A model generated the notes under the pieces. The model searched no databases. It was given only the letters and a program-made list of their open reading frames with translations, and had not been told where the DNA came from. From Gammaproteobacteria bacterium (GTDB taxonomy: Bacteria; Pseudomonadota; Gammaproteobacteria; SZUA-229), in contig JASBSR010000006.1 in NCBI GenBank assembly GCA_030148865.1, positions 1 through 64,000 of the forward strand: a stretch of 64,000 nt of DNA, written 5' to 3'. A program made the translations under genes and the position numbers. Position 1 is the first letter of the stretch; each line of letters starts with the position of its first letter. Shown here piece by piece: positions 1,167 through 61,150 of the stretch.

Positions 1167-1517
1167 TTAATCCAGTTTTAGTTTTATTGAATTCATTAAT
1201 CCGACTATCATAGCTGATATTTCTTTTGTTTCTGCTACCCATTGTTTTCCTTTATTTGGCGACAGATAGCCAATTTTAACTCCAATATACACCTGTGTTC
1301 TCAGTTCACCGCACGAGCCTTTTGCGTAGGATAAAAAATTCAGCGTCTCTCTATCAGAGCATCTCTCTATACCTTCGGCAATATTACTCGGGATTGACAG
1401 CCCGGATCGGGTTATCTGATCTCGGTACCCGTAATCATTCAAATTTTTTAGTGTACTGTAAACATCTGCACTTAATCCAGCAGATCGCTTCCACACCTCT
1501 AAATCTTCAAATGCCAT
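1167..1517 (-). CDS. Four-helix bundle protein (S23/IVP family)
   Basis: This 116-aa protein has the hallmarks of the four-helix bundle family first seen in 23S rRNA intervening sequences: [20 protein letters not shown] at the start, then [35 protein letters not shown]. The family forms a small helical bundle. Its cellular role is not settled. It sits inside the rhamnose operon between rfbB and rfbA. Imperfect inverted copies of a CAGTTGGCAG-type repeat flank it near 1093-1116 and 1571-1593, which suggests that it came in as a unit. The first ATG is used. Confidence 0.88.
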
Positions 1518-1570
1518 GAAAAACTCCGTTTTTCAATTATCAGTTTTCCGTTATTAACTGCTTTTACTAT

Positions 1571-1593
1571 GTACTGCTAACTGCCAACTGATG
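1571..1593. repeat. CAGTTGGCAG-type repeat, right of the four-helix gene
   Basis: This is the inverted partner of the repeat at 1093-1116. It overlaps the very end of rfbB, so the last codons of rfbB fall inside the repeat. Confidence 0.5.
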
Positions 1594-2650
1594 ACTCGAT
1601 TTTTATTCCAAGTCGTTCGCGTTGATAACTACCATCCTGCACGTGCCGGCACCATTCTGCATTATCCAGATACCATTGAATGGTTTTGCGAATACCGCTT
1701 TCAAAAGTCTCTTCCGGCACCCAGCCCAGCTGGTGTTTGATTTTATCGGCGTCGATCGCGTAGCGCAGGTCATGACCCGGACGATCTGTGACATAGGTAA
1801 TCAAACTTTCGTGCGGAGCATGCTGTGCATCGGGCACCAGTTCGTCGAGCAATGCACAAATGGTTCTTACCACTTCGAGATTGGTTTTTTCGTTGTGGCC
1901 GCCGATGTTGTAGGTTTCGCCGAACTCACCTTTTTCCAGCACCAGTCTTAGCGCACGCGCGTGATCGTCAACGTGCAACCAGTCTCGCACCTGTGAGCCA
2001 TCACCATATATCGGCAGCGCTTTTCCTTCCAATGCATTCAGCGTGACCAGCGGGATGAGTTTTTCCGGGAACTGGTACGGGCCATAGTTGTTTGAACAAT
2101 TGGTTAACACCACCGGAAAACCGTAGGTGCGATGCCATGATCTAACCAGATGGTCAGATGAGGCCTTGCTGGCAGAATACGGTGAGCTCGGATCATAGGC
2201 GGTGTCTTCAGTGAAAAATCCGCTGGCTTCGAGATCGCCATAGACCTCATCGGTTGAGACATGATGAAACCGAAAACGGGATTTTCTCAGCGGCGAAAGC
2301 TCGCTCCAGTACTGGCGGCAGACATCCAGCAGATTATAGGTACCCACAATGTTGGTCATGATGAAGTCGGCTGGGCCGTCGATAGAGCGATCGACGTGCG
2401 ATTCTGCGGCCAGATGCATCACCGCATCCGGCTGCTGCTGCTCGATACAGGCCTGCACAGCTGCGCGGTCACGAATATCAACCTGCTCGAAATGATAGCG
2501 CGGGTTATTTTCAACCGCCGTCAGAGATTCAAGATTGCCGGCGTAGGTCAGCGCATCAAGATTAATAATCTCGTGATCGCTGTGCTCGATATACTGCCGT
2601 ATCACCGCAGAACCGATAAAACCTGCACCGCCGGTGACAACAATCTTCAT
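1577..2650 (-). CDS. rfbB: dTDP-glucose 4,6-dehydratase
   Basis: RmlB/RfbB dehydrates dTDP-glucose to the 4-keto-6-deoxy sugar, the second step to dTDP-rhamnose. At 357 aa it has the usual length. It shows the Rossmann motif [17 protein letters not shown] at the N-terminus, the catalytic [11 protein letters not shown] stretch, and the [12 protein letters not shown] motif of extended short-chain dehydrogenases. The C-terminal [10 protein letters not shown] segment is also typical. The gene ends within a repeat shared with the far side of the four-helix-bundle gene. Confidence 0.97.
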
Positions 2651-2681
2651 GACAACAGCCTGTCAATGTTGAATAAAAATT

Positions 2682-2757
<76 letters not shown>

Positions 2758-2811
2758 GAAAATCTGTGGGTCTAAATGGGGTGGTGAATCTAAGGGAAGC
2801 ATCATACTATG

Positions 2812-4218
2812 TCAAGCCATCGCCTGTTCGGCGAGATGGTCGATTGCACGCCTGAGCCGTGCCAGTGTCTTAATCTTGCCCAGCACTTCCAGCGTAATAT
2901 CGATTGAGGGTGAGGAACCACCACCAGTGGTGGCCACCCGCAATGGCATGCCGACCTTGCCCATGCCAACGCCGAGTTGTTCGGCAGTTTGTTCAACAAC
3001 GCCATGTATCGCAGCTGCCGACCAGTCGTCCAGTTTTTCAAATGCTGTCAGCAAATGCTGCAAGGCATCACGAGCGCCGGGTTTCATGTGTTTCTTCGCG
3101 GCTTTCGCCTCATAGCCATCAAATTCTCGATAAAAATACAGGCTCTCATCGACCAGCGCCTGCAGCGTGTTGCAACGTTCACGTAACAGCTCGGCCACGG
3201 CTTCCATGGCAGGGCCATCGTTAATATTGATACCACGCGCACTCAAACCCGTGCGCAATGCATTTGTCAGATCGTCTGTTGGCAGCTTCATGATGTACTG
3301 CTGATTCATCCAGTGCAATTTTTCCGGATTGAATGTCGAGGCAGAGGAATTAATATCCGCCGCATCGAAAAACTCGATCATCTCGGCACGGCTGAAAATT
3401 TCCTGATCGCCGTGCGACCAGCCGAGGCGCACCAGATAATTCATCAACGCTTCCGGCAAAAAACCATCATCACGATACTGCATCACACTCACCGCGCCGT
3501 GGCGCTTGGACAAACGCTTGCCGTCCGCACCCAGGATCATCGGCACATGCGCATAGCTCGGCAACTCGGCACCGAGAGCGCGCAGAATATTGATCTGCCG
3601 CGGTGTGTTATTGAGATGGTCATCACCGCGAATCACGTGACTGATGTTCATATCCCAGTCATCGACCACCACGGTGAGATTGTAGGTCGGCACGCCGTCG
3701 GGCCGCGCGATCACCAGGTCATCCAGCTCGCGGTTATTAATCACCACCCGGCCCTTGACCATGTCGTCGATCACCACATCGCCGTTGAGTGGATTCTTAA
3801 AGCGCACCACCGTGTCATCCGCCTGGCCCAGGCCTTTATCACGACAGCAGCCGTCATAGCGCGGCTTTTGTTTGTTCGCCATCTGGATTTCGCGCAGTTC
3901 GTGCAAGCGCTGTTTCGAGCAATTGCAGTAATACGCATCACCGGAAGCGAGTAACTGCTGAATGACTTCAGCATAACGATCAAAGCGCTGGGTCTGATAG
4001 AACGGGCCTTCGTCATAATCCAGCCCCAGCCAGTCCATGCTCTGCAAAATGGCATCCACCGAGGCCTGGGTGGAGCGCTCACGGTCAGTATCTTCGATGC
4101 GCAGAATAAACCTGCCGCCCAGCCTGCGGGCAAACAGCCAGGAAAACAGCGCCGTGCGCGCACCTCCAATATGGAGATAACCGGTCGGGCTTGGGGCAAA
4201 ACGAGTACGTACGGTCAT
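2812..4218 (-). CDS. gltX: Glutamyl-tRNA synthetase
   Basis: This class I enzyme charges tRNA-Glu. The ORF track extends to 4347, but the protein should start at the ATG at 4218 ([21 protein letters not shown]), because the extra 43 residues are unlike the family and run into the divergent queG. The resulting 468 aa fits bacterial GltX. HIGG is the HIGH motif and KRLSKRHG is the KMSKS loop. The zinc knuckle seen in the E. coli enzyme is partly kept as CNC and CR, but the final His position reads Asp. The C-terminal anticodon-binding part ends in [14 protein letters not shown] and an AIDHLAEQA tail. Confidence 0.97.
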
Positions 4219-53872: not shown

Positions 53873-54892
53873 ATGAAGCGTATCATTATGTGTGCCGACG
53901 GCACCTGGAACCGACCCGAGGAAGATCTCAGTAAAGATTTTCCGACCAATGTATTAAAAATCGCACGCGCGATTTCGCCAATGGCCCGCGACAGTGTGCC
54001 ACAGGTGGTGTTTTATGACTGGGGCCTGGGCTCCTATCACGACAACGTCACGGGCGGCGCGTTTGGTGCTGGTATTGATAAAAATATCGCCGATCATTAC
54101 CGGTTTATCGTACAAAACTACCACGCTGGCGACGAGTTGTATTTTTTCGGGTTTAGTCGCGGTGCTTACACCGTGCGCAGTCTCGCCGGTTTAATGAACA
54201 ACTGCGGAATCCTCAAACGTGAATACGCCAGCCGGATTCAGCAGGCTTATGATGTTTACAAAAACCCCGAGAGACACCCCGATGACGCGTTTTCTGTCGC
54301 CTTTCGTAAAAAATATGCGGGTGGTGAAAAACGCCAAATTCACTTTATTGGAGTCTGGGATACCGTCGGCGCGCTCGGCATTCCGCTACGCATGCTCGGC
54401 TTTCTCAACGAAAAACATGTGTTCTATGATACCAAGATCGGCCCCAATATCAGCATCGCGCGACACGCGCTCTCGATTGATGAATTGCGTAAAGATTTTG
54501 CAGCCACGATCTGGAAACCACGCAGCGGCATGGATTTGCAGCAGGTCTGGTTTCCCGGGGTACACGCCGATATCGGTGGCGGTTATCCACCGGGACCCGA
54601 GGGCGAATCGCTGTCGGATATTGCATTGCAGTGGATGATACAACAGGCGCAAACCGCCGGGCTGGAATTCGAATCGCATTTAATTCGGGCAATGAAACCC
54701 GTGGTGACGGCTGAAAAACACAACGAGTACAGCGGCTTTTTCAAACTCATGGGCAGCAAAGAACGCACCATTTTAAAAAGCACCGATCTGCACATCAGTG
54801 CGCAACAACGCTATCAGACTAATTCAAAATATCGACCGGAAAATCTTGAAAAATTTGTTGATAAATACGGCTGGGTCAATCTGGTCGAATAA
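53873..54892 (+). CDS. DUF2235 alpha/beta-hydrolase protein
   Basis: A 339-aa protein of the DUF2235 family, found also in the phospholipase effectors of type VI secretion. The start IIMCADGTWNRPEE and the nucleophile elbow YFFGFSRGAYTVRSLAGLMNNCG are diagnostic; AARHALSIDELRKDF-type and VWFPGVHADIGGGYPPG follow. There is no signal peptide, and no VgrG or immunity gene lies nearby, so it may be a housekeeping lipase-like protein instead of an effector. Confidence 0.87.
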   Translation: MKRIIMCADGTWNRPEEDLSKDFPTNVLKIARAISPMARDSVPQVVFYDWGLGSYHDNVTGGAFGAGIDKNIADHYRFIVQNYHAGDELYFFGFSRGAYTVRSLAGLMNNCGILKREYASRIQQAYDVYKNPERHPDDAFSVAFRKKYAGGEKRQIHFIGVWDTVGALGIPLRMLGFLNEKHVFYDTKIGPNISIARHALSIDELRKDFAATIWKPRSGMDLQQVWFPGVHADIGGGYPPGPEGESLSDIALQWMIQQAQTAGLEFESHLIRAMKPVVTAEKHNEYSGFFKLMGSKERTILKSTDLHISAQQRYQTNSKYRPENLEKFVDKYGWVNLVE

Positions 54893-54919
54893 AACCGCTG
54901 CACCGCAACATGGCTTCGT

Positions 54920-55519
54920 ATGGAATATATAGCCGCCGCCTTTGTCTTCGGCCTGGCTGGCGGGCTCAATCCCGGTGTGCTCAGTATTTTTGTGCTGCAC
55001 CAGATCCTCAAGCACGGTAACCGTGCCGGCCTGCTCGCCAGCTTTGCACCCTTTGTCTCCGACGGGCCGATTATTCTCGCCGTGTTACTGCTGCTCTCCA
55101 GCACGCAACATCTCGACACTGTGCTCATGCTGCTCTCTGTCGCTGGTGCGACTTATCTGTTTTATCTCGCGCTCAGTCTCTGGCGCGGTGTCGATGTCGA
55201 TGCCCCGGACACACGATCAACACCAGCCTCATTTTTAACTGCGGTGAAAGTGAATCTCTTGAATCCAGCGCCATATATGTTCTGGGCGACTGTCGGCAGC
55301 GCCTATCTGTTGCGCGGCAATACCCTGCAGGCCGCCAGCTTTGTGGTGGTGATGCTGGCCACTCTGGCGCTCAGCAAATTCGCGCTGGCAAAGTCTATCG
55401 CCATGCTCGGTGCGCGCTTCAACCCCCGTATTCAGGCCAGTATCCTCAAAATACTCTCCCTGCTATTACTGGTATTTGCACTGCGCCTGCTGTTTCAGGC
55501 CTGGAAGATGGCCGCCTAA
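54920..55519 (+). CDS. LysE-family exporter
   Basis: A 199-aa integral membrane protein with about six helices, resembling LysE/RhtB amino-acid exporters: AAFVFGLAGGLNPGVLSIFVLHQILKHGNRAGLLASFAPFVSDGPII at the start and KVNLLNPAPYMFWATVGS in the middle. It follows the DUF2235 gene after 27 bp. The exported substrate is unknown. Confidence 0.86.
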   Translation: MEYIAAAFVFGLAGGLNPGVLSIFVLHQILKHGNRAGLLASFAPFVSDGPIILAVLLLLSSTQHLDTVLMLLSVAGATYLFYLALSLWRGVDVDAPDTRSTPASFLTAVKVNLLNPAPYMFWATVGSAYLLRGNTLQAASFVVVMLATLALSKFALAKSIAMLGARFNPRIQASILKILSLLLLVFALRLLFQAWKMAA

Positions 55520-55601: not shown

Positions 55602-55640
55602 ATGAGAATCGTTTGCATTTAGATTTGCATTATGTACAAT
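55602..55640 (+). promoter_or_regulatory. Fur-box-like operator and promoter for the porin gene
   Basis: TGAGAATCGTTTGCATT (55603-55619) resembles the Fur consensus TGATAATnATTATCA, in the common form TGAGAATcnTTTGCA. It overlaps the -35 element TTGCAT (55613-55618), which is 16 bp from a -10 element TACAAT (55635-55640). This placement fits repression by iron-loaded Fur. Confidence 0.7.
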
Positions 55641-55688
55641 GCACCCATCAATCACTAACTACTAATGACTACCCCGGAGAGATACATC

Positions 55689-56801
55689 ATGTTACGCACC
55701 GCTCTATCGGCTGCCATCCTCGGCAGCCTCACTGCTATCCCGACTGCTACACTGGCAGCAGTCTCCGATGCTGAATTCAAGGCGCTGCAGGAGCAGCTCA
55801 ATACGCTCGCAGATCAGGTCGATAACAACAGCCGTTCAGCCAGCAATACCCAGGTCGGCGGTTACGGTGAAATGCACTATAACAATGTCGAAACCAGCAC
55901 CGGTCGTAACAAACAAATCGATTTTGAGCGTTTTATATTGTTCGTCGACCACCAGTTCAGCGACAGCATCCGCTTCATCTCTGAGACTGAAATTGAGCAT
56001 TCCATCGCCGGCGAAGGTCAGAACGGTGAAATCGAGATCGAACAGGCCTATATCCAGATGGATTTGAATGACAGCACCCAGCTCAACGCCGGTCTGTTCA
56101 TGCTTCCGGTGGGTATCATCAACGAATCACACGAACCGAACATTTTTTATGGTGTCGAGCGTAACCCGGTCGAGCAATACATTGTTCCTGCCACCTGGTG
56201 GGAAGGCGGCACCATGTTGTCAGGAAACTTTGCCAGCGGTATCAGCTACGATCTGGCAGTGCATAGTGGCCTCGCTGTTGACCCAGCCCAGGTCAACATT
56301 CGCGGTGGACGCCAAAAAGTCTCCGAAGCCAAAGCTAACAACTGGGCGATGACCGGCCGCGTGCGTTACACCGGTATTGCAGGGCTGGAGCTATCGGGTA
56401 CCTTGCAATTACAGGACGACATCACCCAGAACAGCAGCGACAATGTTGGAGGTGCCACACTGCTCGAAACCCATGTAGTCTGGAACAGCGGCCCAACCAC
56501 CGTCAAAGCACTGTACGCACGCTGGAATATCGACGGTAGTGCTGCCAAAGCTCTGAGTAAAGATGTTCAGGACGGCGGCTATGTCGAAGCCGCATACAAA
56601 CTCAATGCAAACCACGGCGTCTTTGCCCGCCACAATGTGTGGGACAACGGTGGCGCTGGTAATACCAAAAAAACCCAGAGCAACATCGGCTATAGCTACT
56701 GGCCGCACGAAGATGTCGTCTTCAAAGCCGACTACCAGACACAAGAAAGTAACAATGTTAAATATAATGGATTCAATCTTGGTGTTGGCTACCAGTTTTA
56801 G
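55689..56801 (+). CDS. Porin-like outer-membrane protein
   Basis: A 370-aa protein. The ATG at 55689 follows CGGAGAG and starts the signal peptide MLRTALSAAILGSLTAIPTATLAA, with a short coiled-coil-like stretch LQEQLNTLADQVDNNS. The barrel follows, with features such as YGEMHYNNVET, EIEIEQAYIQMDLNDSTQLNAGLFMLPVGIINESHEP, and ends in LGVGYQF with terminal Phe. It resembles OprP/phosphate-selective-type porins. The upstream Fur-box-like site suggests use in iron acquisition. Confidence 0.86.
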   Translation: MLRTALSAAILGSLTAIPTATLAAVSDAEFKALQEQLNTLADQVDNNSRSASNTQVGGYGEMHYNNVETSTGRNKQIDFERFILFVDHQFSDSIRFISETEIEHSIAGEGQNGEIEIEQAYIQMDLNDSTQLNAGLFMLPVGIINESHEPNIFYGVERNPVEQYIVPATWWEGGTMLSGNFASGISYDLAVHSGLAVDPAQVNIRGGRQKVSEAKANNWAMTGRVRYTGIAGLELSGTLQLQDDITQNSSDNVGGATLLETHVVWNSGPTTVKALYARWNIDGSAAKALSKDVQDGGYVEAAYKLNANHGVFARHNVWDNGGAGNTKKTQSNIGYSYWPHEDVVFKADYQTQESNNVKYNGFNLGVGYQF

Positions 56802-56834
56802 AAAAACTCCTGCTGATCTAGCATCAGTATTTAT

Positions 56835-56860
56835 GCGGGGCACTACGCCCCGCTTTTTTT
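56835..56860 (+). terminator. Terminator after the porin gene
   Basis: GCGGGGC-ACTAC-GCCCCGC followed by seven T residues. It sits between the porin and the FMN-binding gene, whose start is only 28 bp further on. Confidence 0.93.
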
Positions 56861-56887
56861 GTTGCTGAAATGCTAGTATTGCCCGCC

Positions 56888-57415
56888 ATGAATAATCGTT
56901 TTTACCTGTTTCTGCTCTGCTGCCTGTTGCCCGCCGGCAATCTCATAGCTGGAGGTGTTTATCAGGAACCCGATGCCTTCATTCAGGAAAGCTTTCCGGG
57001 AGCCAAACCCGAGGCCAAAATATTCTGGCCCAGCGCCGAACTGAAACAGAAAATAGAGCGCGTTCTTGGTCACGCCTACCAGAGCTTACGCATACGCTAC
57101 TGGCAGACTGGGCAACGCACTGCCTGGATCCTCGAAGAAATCGGCAAGGACAAGCCCATCACCACCGGCGTGCTGATCAATCAGCATAAAATTGAAAAAA
57201 TTCGTGTGCTGGTATTTCGCGAAAGCCGCGGCTGGGAAGTCCGCCACGGATTTTTCACCGAACAGTTCGATAACGCGACACTGGATAAAGACCTACAGCT
57301 TGACAGACACATCGACAATATTTCGGGCGCGACACTGTCAGTGAATGCCCTGGAAAAAATCGCCCGCCTCGCCCTGCTTCTGGAACAACAGGTGACTGCA
57401 GATGACCAACCGTAA
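56888..57415 (+). CDS. FMN-binding domain protein, exported
   Basis: A 175-aa protein with a signal peptide (MNNRFYLFLLCCLLPAGNLIAGG). The C-terminal part contains DRHIDNISGATLSVNAL, which fits the flavinylation consensus Dxx[ST]GATx[ST] of covalent FMN proteins such as NqrC and RnfG, modified by ApbE. It therefore likely carries FMN in the periplasm. It overlaps the PepSY gene by 14 nt, so the two are one unit. The start at 56888 is preferred to the earlier ATG at 56870 because the latter lies close to the terminator. Confidence 0.86.
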   Translation: MNNRFYLFLLCCLLPAGNLIAGGVYQEPDAFIQESFPGAKPEAKIFWPSAELKQKIERVLGHAYQSLRIRYWQTGQRTAWILEEIGKDKPITTGVLINQHKIEKIRVLVFRESRGWEVRHGFFTEQFDNATLDKDLQLDRHIDNISGATLSVNALEKIARLALLLEQQVTADDQP

Positions 57416-58181
57416 GCCAAAACGCATGACTGCTTTTCTCTGGCACCGCCGTGTCGGACTGCTGGCGATAGCACTGGTCATCACCCTCGCCATCACCGGC
57501 ATCATGCTCAATCACACCGAAGACTTTAAACTGGATAAAACTTTTGTTGATTCAGCACTGGTCCTCGACTGGTACGGGCTGGAACCGGAAGGTGAACCTG
57601 TGAGTTTTTCTGTGCCTGGCCACTGGATCAGCCAGTGGCAGAAAGAAATATTTTTTGATGATCGCATCATCACCAGTAACGACCAGACACTGCATGGTGC
57701 GATTCACAGCCACGAATTTATTGTGCTCGCCTTCGATCACGAACTGTTGTTACTCACCAACAAAGGTGAACTGGTGGAACGCATTCCTACCAGCATCAGT
57801 TTTAAAAAAACCGTGCGCCTGGGGGTCAAATACCAGCGTCCGGTAATCGAGACTGAAGATGCCATACATTATATCGCCGACGAACATATCATTGACTGGG
57901 ATGTGGTCAGCGACGATGACATCGTCTGGTCAAACCCCGTCGCTATACAGAATGGCCAGCGCGAAGCTCTGTTGCGTGCTTTTCGCGGAAATGGTTTGAA
58001 TCTGGAACGTGTGATTCTGGACCTGCACAGCGGCAGAATCTTCGGCCACTACGGTATTTATCTAATGGACGCTGCCGCCATCGCCCTGCTCTGGTTATCA
58101 CTCAGCGGTTTGTGGGTATGGTGGAGCCGCCGACAAAAACAGAAAACCAAAAAACACTATCGTAAACACCATCGCAGCTAA
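57402..58181 (+). CDS. PepSY-associated transmembrane protein
   Basis: A 259-aa inner-membrane protein. TAFLWHRRVGLLAIALVITLAITGIMLNHTEDF forms the first helix with histidines before and after, and VILDLHSGRIFGHYGIYLMDAAAIALLWLSLSGLWVWWSRRQ the last, the PepSY_TM pattern. The histidines could bind heme, as in the FoxB/PiuB-type ferric-siderophore reductases of that superfamily, though this protein is shorter. With the upstream FMN protein it may pass electrons across the membrane. Confidence 0.85.
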   Translation: MTNRKPKRMTAFLWHRRVGLLAIALVITLAITGIMLNHTEDFKLDKTFVDSALVLDWYGLEPEGEPVSFSVPGHWISQWQKEIFFDDRIITSNDQTLHGAIHSHEFIVLAFDHELLLLTNKGELVERIPTSISFKKTVRLGVKYQRPVIETEDAIHYIADEHIIDWDVVSDDDIVWSNPVAIQNGQREALLRAFRGNGLNLERVILDLHSGRIFGHYGIYLMDAAAIALLWLSLSGLWVWWSRRQKQKTKKHYRKHHRS

Positions 58182-59883: not shown

Positions 59884-61150
59884 GGGGTACGAGTCAAGGA
59901 CATAGGTTACACTTTTATCGTGATATAGGGCACCGAGCGCCCTTTGATATCCCGCTCATTAAAATGTCCAATAGTTACCGGGCCAAAATACACTTGCCAA
60001 TGGCCGTCATCTATCTCTTCGAGTCCAACATTCTCATCTTTTAGTAAGTGTGACACGTATACCCTCTTGTTACGCCAGTACACCGCGCCGTTGGTACTGA
60101 CCTTGCGCACTTCATAGTAACCGGGATACACCATCTCCGGTAAACGCTCTGGATACAGTCGTAATGACGCACTGTATTGCGATGCAGGGGTGTGTTGATC
60201 GAGCGCTTCGTGCGGCCGTTCTTCATTGTATTCATGACAAAATGCATCAAAGCGTTGCTGTTGACCACGCATGCTACGTGACGGTGGACGGGTGGCTACT
60301 TGTTTTAATGTTCGGTGCATGCGTTCATGCCGTCCATTCTGCTGCGGTTTACCCGGCTCGATACGTTCGAGCATGATGCCCAATTTGACCCACCGTAACG
60401 ACAGTTGTGACAGACCACCGCGCGCGGTACTGGCGAACGGCACGCCATTATCTGATCGAATACGCCCTGGCATCCCGTATTCTCGAAATACATGGATAAA
60501 AGCTGCCCTGGTCTCTTTGAGACGAGGCCCCTTGAGTGCGTCACACGCGTACAAGTAGCGACTCTGATGATCCATCACGGTGAGTGGATAACACCACTGG
60601 CCGTCACCTAATTTGAACTGGTCTTTGTAATCGACACTCCATAGCTCATTAATCTGATGCACCGGGGCAAACGGTTGCGGACAGGGTGATACGCGGCGCT
60701 TGCGCCGACGTGATTGAACCAGACCAGCACGGTTGAGGATATTATAAATTGTGCTTTTTGATGAGATCACTTCGTTGGGGTAACGCTGCGCCGGCAATGC
60801 CTGCAGCTTCTTCGCGCCAGGCGTCGTTTGATATTGCTGGCGTAGCTCGATAATGCGCTGCACCATGCGGTAGGGGGTTTGCGTGTGGCTATGCGCCGGG
60901 CGGCGACTGCGCTCATTCAAACCGTCCAACCCAGACTGCTCAAACCGCTCGATCCATTTATACCCGGTCTTGCGGCTGATGCCGTACTGCGTACATAAGT
61001 CCGTAAAACTGGATAACTGACGCAGATAATCTGCGATGAACAAAATCTTTTGCTCCACAGGTCTCACCTCTTTCCAGGGCATAGGCACCTCCTTATCTCG
61101 GTGCCTACAGATTACGAAAATCTGTTACCTATGTATATAACCCGTACCCC
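59884..61150 (-). mobile_element. IS481-family insertion sequence
   Basis: Bounded by imperfect inverted repeats: GGGGTACGAGTCAAGGACATAGGTTACA on the left, and on the right, inverted, GGGGTACGGGTTATATACATAGGTAACA. Inside is a single transposase gene. The outermost bases are not certain and no target-site duplication was evident. Confidence 0.75.
59907..61082 (-). CDS. IS481-family transposase
   Basis: A 391-aa integrase-like DDE transposase. The N-terminal helix-turn-helix region reads FTDLCTQYGISRKTGYKWIERFEQSGLDGLNERSRRP. The rve core has ELWSVDYKDQFKL (first Asp), RIRSDNGVPFAS (second Asp) and PGKPQQNGRHERMHRTLK (Glu). The start is the ATG at 61082, preceded by AAGGAGG at 5 nt; the track begins at an upstream GTG. 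The frame is intact, so the element may still be active. Confidence 0.95.
   Translation of the reverse strand: MPWKEVRPVEQKILFIADYLRQLSSFTDLCTQYGISRKTGYKWIERFEQSGLDGLNERSRRPAHSHTQTPYRMVQRIIELRQQYQTTPGAKKLQALPAQRYPNEVISSKSTIYNILNRAGLVQSRRRKRRVSPCPQPFAPVHQINELWSVDYKDQFKLGDGQWCYPLTVMDHQSRYLYACDALKGPRLKETRAAFIHVFREYGMPGRIRSDNGVPFASTARGGLSQLSLRWVKLGIMLERIEPGKPQQNGRHERMHRTLKQVATRPPSRSMRGQQQRFDAFCHEYNEERPHEALDQHTPASQYSASLRLYPERLPEMVYPGYYEVRKVSTNGAVYWRNKRVYVSHLLKDENVGLEEIDDGHWQVYFGPVTIGHFNERDIKGRSVPYITIKV

Follow-up and report, generated by a model that had tools for sequence, protein, structure and literature searches.

Organisation of the locus

The window, that is, the whole 64,000-nucleotide stretch of DNA analysed, sits on G000:C24 of a 2.68-Mb genome assembled in 44 contigs (93% complete). 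It carries genes for a porin, an FMN_bind protein and a PepSY_TM protein, referred to below as the trio, with the following features.

55603–55619, + strand: Fur-box-like operator TGAGAATCGTTTGCATT; single exact copy genome-wide; matrix score 10.5 bits, p=0.019; kept in orthologous promoters
After TGAGAATCGTTTGCATT, to about 55631, + strand: repeat TTTGCATT, related to TGAGAATCGTTTGCATT
55612–55640, + strand: porin promoter, sigma-70-type; -35 TTTGCA at 55612–55617, spacer of 17 nt, -10 TACAAT at 55635–55640
55689–56801, + strand: porin coding sequence, 370 aa; the start chosen is an ATG with a ribosome-binding site
56835–56853 followed by seven T, element to 56860, + strand: intrinsic terminator or attenuator GCGGGGC-ACTAC-GCCCCGC, with seven G-C pairs and a loop of 5
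56888–57415, + strand: FMN_bind gene, 175 aa; Pfam FMN_bind E 3e-7; signal peptide; motif DNISGATLS
57402–58181, + strand: PepSY_TM gene, 259 aa; Pfam PepSY_TM E 9e-14

A sequence-only reading of this DNA had described a Fur-box-like site over the porin -35, an overlap between the second and third genes and a terminator ahead of the FMN gene, and this layout was borne out on reinspection. The -35 hexamer falls within TGAGAATCGTTTGCATT, the last 14 nt of the FMN_bind gene are shared with the start of the PepSY_TM gene, and the GC-rich hairpin with its seven T is located between the porin gene and the FMN gene, where it may disconnect the FMN and PepSY_TM genes from the porin operator. In the 86-nt gap between the porin and FMN genes, the E. 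coli Fur matrix gave no Fur-like site that could serve the FMN gene. An alternative porin start, the ATG at 55665, is less likely than that at 55689, which has the ribosome-binding site. No RNA families were found at the trio locus, the only one detected being a tRNA-Ala far off. Further downstream, a transposase-like integrase gene (59907–61088, - strand) lies between a quinone-oxidoreductase-like gene and perM, so that the downstream flank of the trio is rearranged relative to sister genera.

Predicted properties of the encoded proteins

The porin matched no Pfam family above its cut-off, and profile searches of the PDB by sequence with the porin and with the FMN protein gave nothing useful. 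The AF2 model of the porin (pLDDT 82) is a 16-stranded barrel with an N-terminal helix, and the Foldseek matches of this model (OmpC/OmpU/OprP, E ~1e-13) are themselves 16-strand porins, placing the protein among the general porins of this type. The presumed L3 constriction loop (residues 138–171), whose inward placement is an assumption from the fold, is rich in glutamate and histidine (E146, H148, E149, E157 and E162) and is the best-conserved segment of the porin, with a mean identity of 0.83 vs 0.62 elsewhere. Glutamates 99, 101 and 103 alternate along one strand and would resemble an OprP-like ladder of opposite charge. These conserved glutamates would suit a cationic substrate, iron being a natural candidate.

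The FMN_bind protein has a signal peptide, as read from its sequence, and is assigned to the periplasm. The SGATLS flavinylation motif noted earlier is present as DNISGATLS, with Thr149 as the predicted FMN attachment residue, and G147, A148, T149 and S151 are 100% conserved in 48 sequences. When the genome was searched for ApbE, two genes were found, the product of one having a lipoprotein-like signal. FMN would be held covalently on Thr149. A search of the plasmid collection with the FMN protein returned no relative.

The PepSY_TM protein matched PF03929 (E 9e-14) and PF16357 (E 7e-8). Its AF2 model (pLDDT 88) consists of TM1 (residues 10–37), a beta-rich periplasmic domain (approximately 60–170) and TM2 (212–249). 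The helices do contain histidines, as had been pointed out, and of these H15 and H209 are invariant (100%) and H38 is 93% conserved. A contig scan with the protein gave a single named relative, an uncultured gammaproteobacterium, at 62% identity. A profile comparison matched the protein to FoxB (7abw; E 2.6e-5), with separate alignments to each FoxB half. The Foldseek matches of the beta domain were parts of beta-propellers, the best E overall being 0.004; one of them was a fragment that forms a nine-bladed propeller from three three-bladed pieces (TM 0.59 by target). Given this best E, the half-propeller match of the model would reflect a fold class rather than homology.

The earlier likening of this protein to FoxB and PiuB thus holds for the profile match and the histidine motifs, and fails for the build. 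In FoxB-type proteins, two PepSY domains cap a bundle of four helices, whereas the window protein is half-size, with two helices and a modelled half-propeller; the conserved membrane histidines for haem are present at the sequence level. In its membrane part the protein thus corresponds to one half of FoxB, bearing H15, H38 and H209, which suggests that it may form a homodimer, probably with haem b.

The Fur-like operator

The site was scored with a Fur matrix derived from nine Fur-regulated intergenic regions/promoters of E. coli K-12, and for the window site p was taken against dinucleotide shuffles. A match was found, modest on the window promoter alone (p=0.019), as its 10.5 bits are moderate in relation to the 12–23 bits of the training sites. 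In the 2.68-Mb genome there is one exact copy of TGAGAATCGTTTGCATT, and the next best has two mismatches. A near-identical box precedes most orthologous porins, a small number of orthologous promoters being without a clear box. The matrix gave a combined p of 4e-9 over 23 promoters, the window's included, and for promoters outside the window's family, 21 of 27 were significant with a combined p of ~4e-21 (coding-sequence controls, 2e-4). The promoters of the window's family have in common ATGAGAATCRTTTGCATTTGCATT upstream of GTATAATG, the latter being the porin -10, which is kept among relatives; those of distant families carry the near-canonical ATGATAATGATTTGCATT. The same GCAAAT repeats are found in the E. 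coli fepA-fes region.

The window score alone being moderate, we accept the operator as real because the box is conserved across orthologs. The genome has three FUR-family genes (best E 8e-44), and the locus thus combines the two sequence features expected of a Fur regulon member, a Fur-family gene in the same genome and a Fur-like box at its promoter. We infer from the sequences that Fur binds the TGAGAATCGTTTGCATT operator and represses the trio through it.

Conservation of the trio

The trio is kept together in other genomes, in independent lineages and also in a second class. Neither outcome that was to count against the earlier reading, a failed Fur-matrix match or a trio kept together nowhere else, was observed. 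Orthologs of the FMN protein were found in 24/58 genomes of the set of relatives (window genome counted), and the order porin-FMN-PepSY on one strand was seen in all relatives with a long enough contig. The overlap between the FMN and PepSY genes is often 4 nt in relatives; the spacing of the porin and FMN genes varies, from overlapping ends up to some 200 nt. Among 276 evenly sampled Gammaproteobacteria, the flavoprotein was present in 63 genomes, the porin in 70 and both in 62, so that about a fifth of the sampled genomes carry the trio; the porin directly adjoins the flavoprotein gene in 56 of the 63 and lies within 4.5 kb in three more.

Among 249 genomes sampled across the phylum, the flavoprotein also turned up in a different class, in four genomes that all belong to a single genus, and in the three regions examined there (L148, L149 and L151) the porin, FMN and PepSY genes overlap or almost touch. 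The genomes concerned are 1.8–2.4 Mb in size, and an NnrS gene lies near the trio. DUF2271 was considered as a substitute system in trio-free relatives and rejected, as it is rare there; it is absent from the window genome and occurs in 2/58 relatives.

Linkage to iron importers and variant clusters

FeoB is encoded directly upstream of the trio in five relatives from two genera, and the sister-genus order in fully read regions is dapA-gcvR-bcp-feoA-feoB-feoC-porin-FMN-PepSY-perM-cysB. Three relatives from two other genera have the order bcp-FTR1 (divergent)-porin-FMN-PepSY-perM. The feoA and FTR1 promoters of relatives contain Fur-like boxes of the same kind as that of the porin. In the window, two genes (together 53873–55519) fill the interval from bcp (53347) to the porin: one has a DUF2235/Tle1-like phospholipase domain (Pfam E 5e-85), and the other encodes a LysE exporter. 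As sister genera carry feoABC or FTR1 at this position, the iron importer has apparently been replaced.

A search for FeoB in the window genome gave no match, an absence that is uncertain at 93% completeness. The genome encodes an FTR1 iron permease (G000:C25:66848–68785; L129:6849–8786), an unusual fusion of 645 aa that carries a cytochrome c domain at its N-terminus. The second-best copy of the box in this genome has two mismatches and is found 24 bp ahead of the permease start codon. Family-wide, FeoB or FTR1 was present in 21/21 genomes with the trio vs 10/16 without it (Fisher, p=0.003), a value that overstates independence since trio-bearing and trio-free genomes are related; the importer adjacency likewise represents few independent events in one family.

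Variant clusters were also found. One from a distant family (L106:77–8254) has the order porin-imelysin-DHOR-FMN-PepSY-ExbB-ExbD-TonB, DHOR being a di-haem protein, and ties imelysin and DHOR, two little-understood families, to the trio. Another has ApbE between the FMN and PepSY genes on the opposite strand. A protein of ~640 aa with two CxxCH motifs is encoded between the porin and the FMN gene at L104:4928–6859 and in L105 (within 1268–3682); the L104 protein matched no Pfam family.

Proposed function and alternatives

The genes, motifs, conserved operator, linkage, importer adjacency and Fur-family and ApbE genes described above are the observations from which we infer iron reduction, its electron donor, the direction of electron flow and the porin substrate. 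The trio is likely to be a Fur-repressed, siderophore-independent periplasmic ferric reductase that has a dedicated acidic porin and supplies an inner-membrane importer, whose type can vary. When iron is scarce, Fur would leave the operator and the porin would be made, while the FMN and PepSY_TM genes would be expressed either by read-through or from a second, weaker promoter. The porin would admit ferric iron or small iron chelates to the periplasm. The PepSY_TM protein, as a haem b homodimer, would move electrons from the quinol pool or the cytoplasm to the FMN on Thr149, and the FMN protein would reduce Fe(III) to Fe(II) in the periplasm. The Fe(II) would then pass to the importer, FeoB in sister genera and the FTR1-cytochrome c permease in the window genome. 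Its hand-over to FTR1 is not simple, because the iron that FTR1 permeases import is generally believed to have been re-oxidised in the periplasm first. The fusion protein may itself take care of oxidising iron or disposing of electrons.

The possibility exists that the FMN/PepSY pair is a FoxB-like ferrisiderophore reductase, siderophores entering via TonB receptors and the porin being co-regulated and secondary. The homology of the PepSY_TM protein to FoxB, the one cluster with ExbB-ExbD-TonB and the two TonB receptors of the window genome would fit such a role. We nevertheless consider it unlikely, since the near-constant partner of the pair is a porin and not a TonB receptor, and FoxB's PepSY domains are missing from the predicted structure. 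The sequence-only reading had offered iron reduction after import or electron export. In an export system, electrons would leave through the flavoprotein for acceptors outside the cell, and the porin would serve as a conduit or shuttle gate. Almost constant pairing of flavoprotein and porin, and the di-CxxCH protein inserted between them in two lineages, would agree with export, but a 16-strand porin is too narrow for a protein plug, and both the Fur-like control and the feo/FTR1 linkage speak against it. Of the two options iron reduction is favoured, because trios adjoin feoABC, FTR1 or imelysin-DHOR-ExbB-ExbD-TonB and no multihaem cytochromes or conduit were seen in the trio neighbourhoods scanned; export found little support and is highly improbable.

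It is also quite improbable that the box is the site of another regulator or is conserved merely as a strong promoter. The right arm TTTGCATTTGCATT makes an imperfect Fur palindrome and the window score is moderate; against this, distant orthologs have the near-canonical ATGATAATGATTTGCATT, feoA and FTR1 are preceded by the same box type, and the GCAAAT repeats recur at E. coli fepA-fes. Copper (or manganese) as the metal has a precedent in the PepSY_TM protein CrpH, which supports haem-copper oxidases (PMC13038864). We give this explanation hardly any credence, as the neighbours and operators (feoABC, FTR1, imelysin, TonB and Fur-like boxes) indicate iron and no copper genes were recognised beside the trio. 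The siderophore-independent ferric reductase with its own porin is the reading that we retain.

A wider proposal, speculative and perhaps wrong, is that the trio represents a widespread siderophore-free pathway of reductive iron assimilation in Gram-negatives, parallel to yeast Fre-Ftr1. Its parts would be an iron-selective porin, with a ladder of glutamates and a constriction loop of Glu and His; a periplasmic ferric reductase carrying covalent FMN; and a haem protein of two helices, whose dimer would form a four-helix core like that of FoxB, topped by a closed beta-propeller. The whole would plug interchangeably into FeoB or FTR1. For most bacteria little is known of periplasmic ferric reduction ahead of FeoB or FTR1, and less still of how siderophore-free iron passes the outer membrane. 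The trio, under a Fur-like operator beside alternative importers, provides concrete candidate genes for both steps, including a candidate iron-selective porin coupled to a reductase.

Comparison with known systems

PepSY-like flavinylated clusters have been linked to iron reduction and Fur (PMC8238504, Meheust et al. 2021), and structural work has followed (PMC11334425). In Caulobacter, Fur regulates a PepSY/DUF2271 locus that is required during chelation (PMC12004947). When this class is defined by a PepSY_TM gene (PF03929/PF16357) no more than five genes from one for a secreted protein of the FMN_bind, DUF2271 or ApbE kind, the trio belongs to it: the PepSY_TM gene adjoins that of a secreted FMN_bind protein, the substrate has the flavinylation motif and ApbE is encoded in the genome. 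The trio resembles the published clusters in placing a PepSY_TM protein beside an ApbE-type flavinylation substrate and in its links to Fur and iron uptake (PMC8238504). It differs in that those clusters mostly contain DUF2271, DUF4198 and ApbE, none of which is in the window cluster; the DUF2271 partner, common and not defining for the class, is missing from the window genome.

FoxB of Pseudomonas aeruginosa (PDB 7abw), a PepSY_TM protein, is a di-haem ferrisiderophore reductase (PMC8891985, PMC13038864) and shares with the window protein a transmembrane repeat with the same histidine motifs, HRxxGL and HxGRIxG; against the four helices and the pair of PepSY domains of FoxB, the window protein has one two-helix repeat and a half beta-propeller. 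VciB of Vibrio cholerae is likewise a PepSY-like Fe(III)-reducing membrane protein, one that boosts Fe(II) transport, but it is not linked to flavinylation components (PMC8238504), a distinction drawn by description only. The phosphate porin OprP (PDB 2o4v) has the same 16-strand barrel (Foldseek E 3e-13), with a pore lined by arginines for phosphate where the window porin has conserved glutamates. In Francisella, an outer-membrane iron pore is functionally paired with FeoB, as FupA-FeoB (PMC7432831, PMC4905997); in a comparison by description only, the abstracts mention no flavoprotein or PepSY_TM partner.

The literature search found no description of the porin-FMN-PepSY trio, and no account was found in PMC8238504 of a porin dedicated to such a system, of a PepSY_TM protein with two helices or of partners of the feo/FTR1 kind. 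Thus, the general class (flavinylated PepSY-like systems under Fur control with proposed iron reduction) is already published, whereas the porin, the half-size membrane protein with its half-propeller and the importer swap appear to be new.
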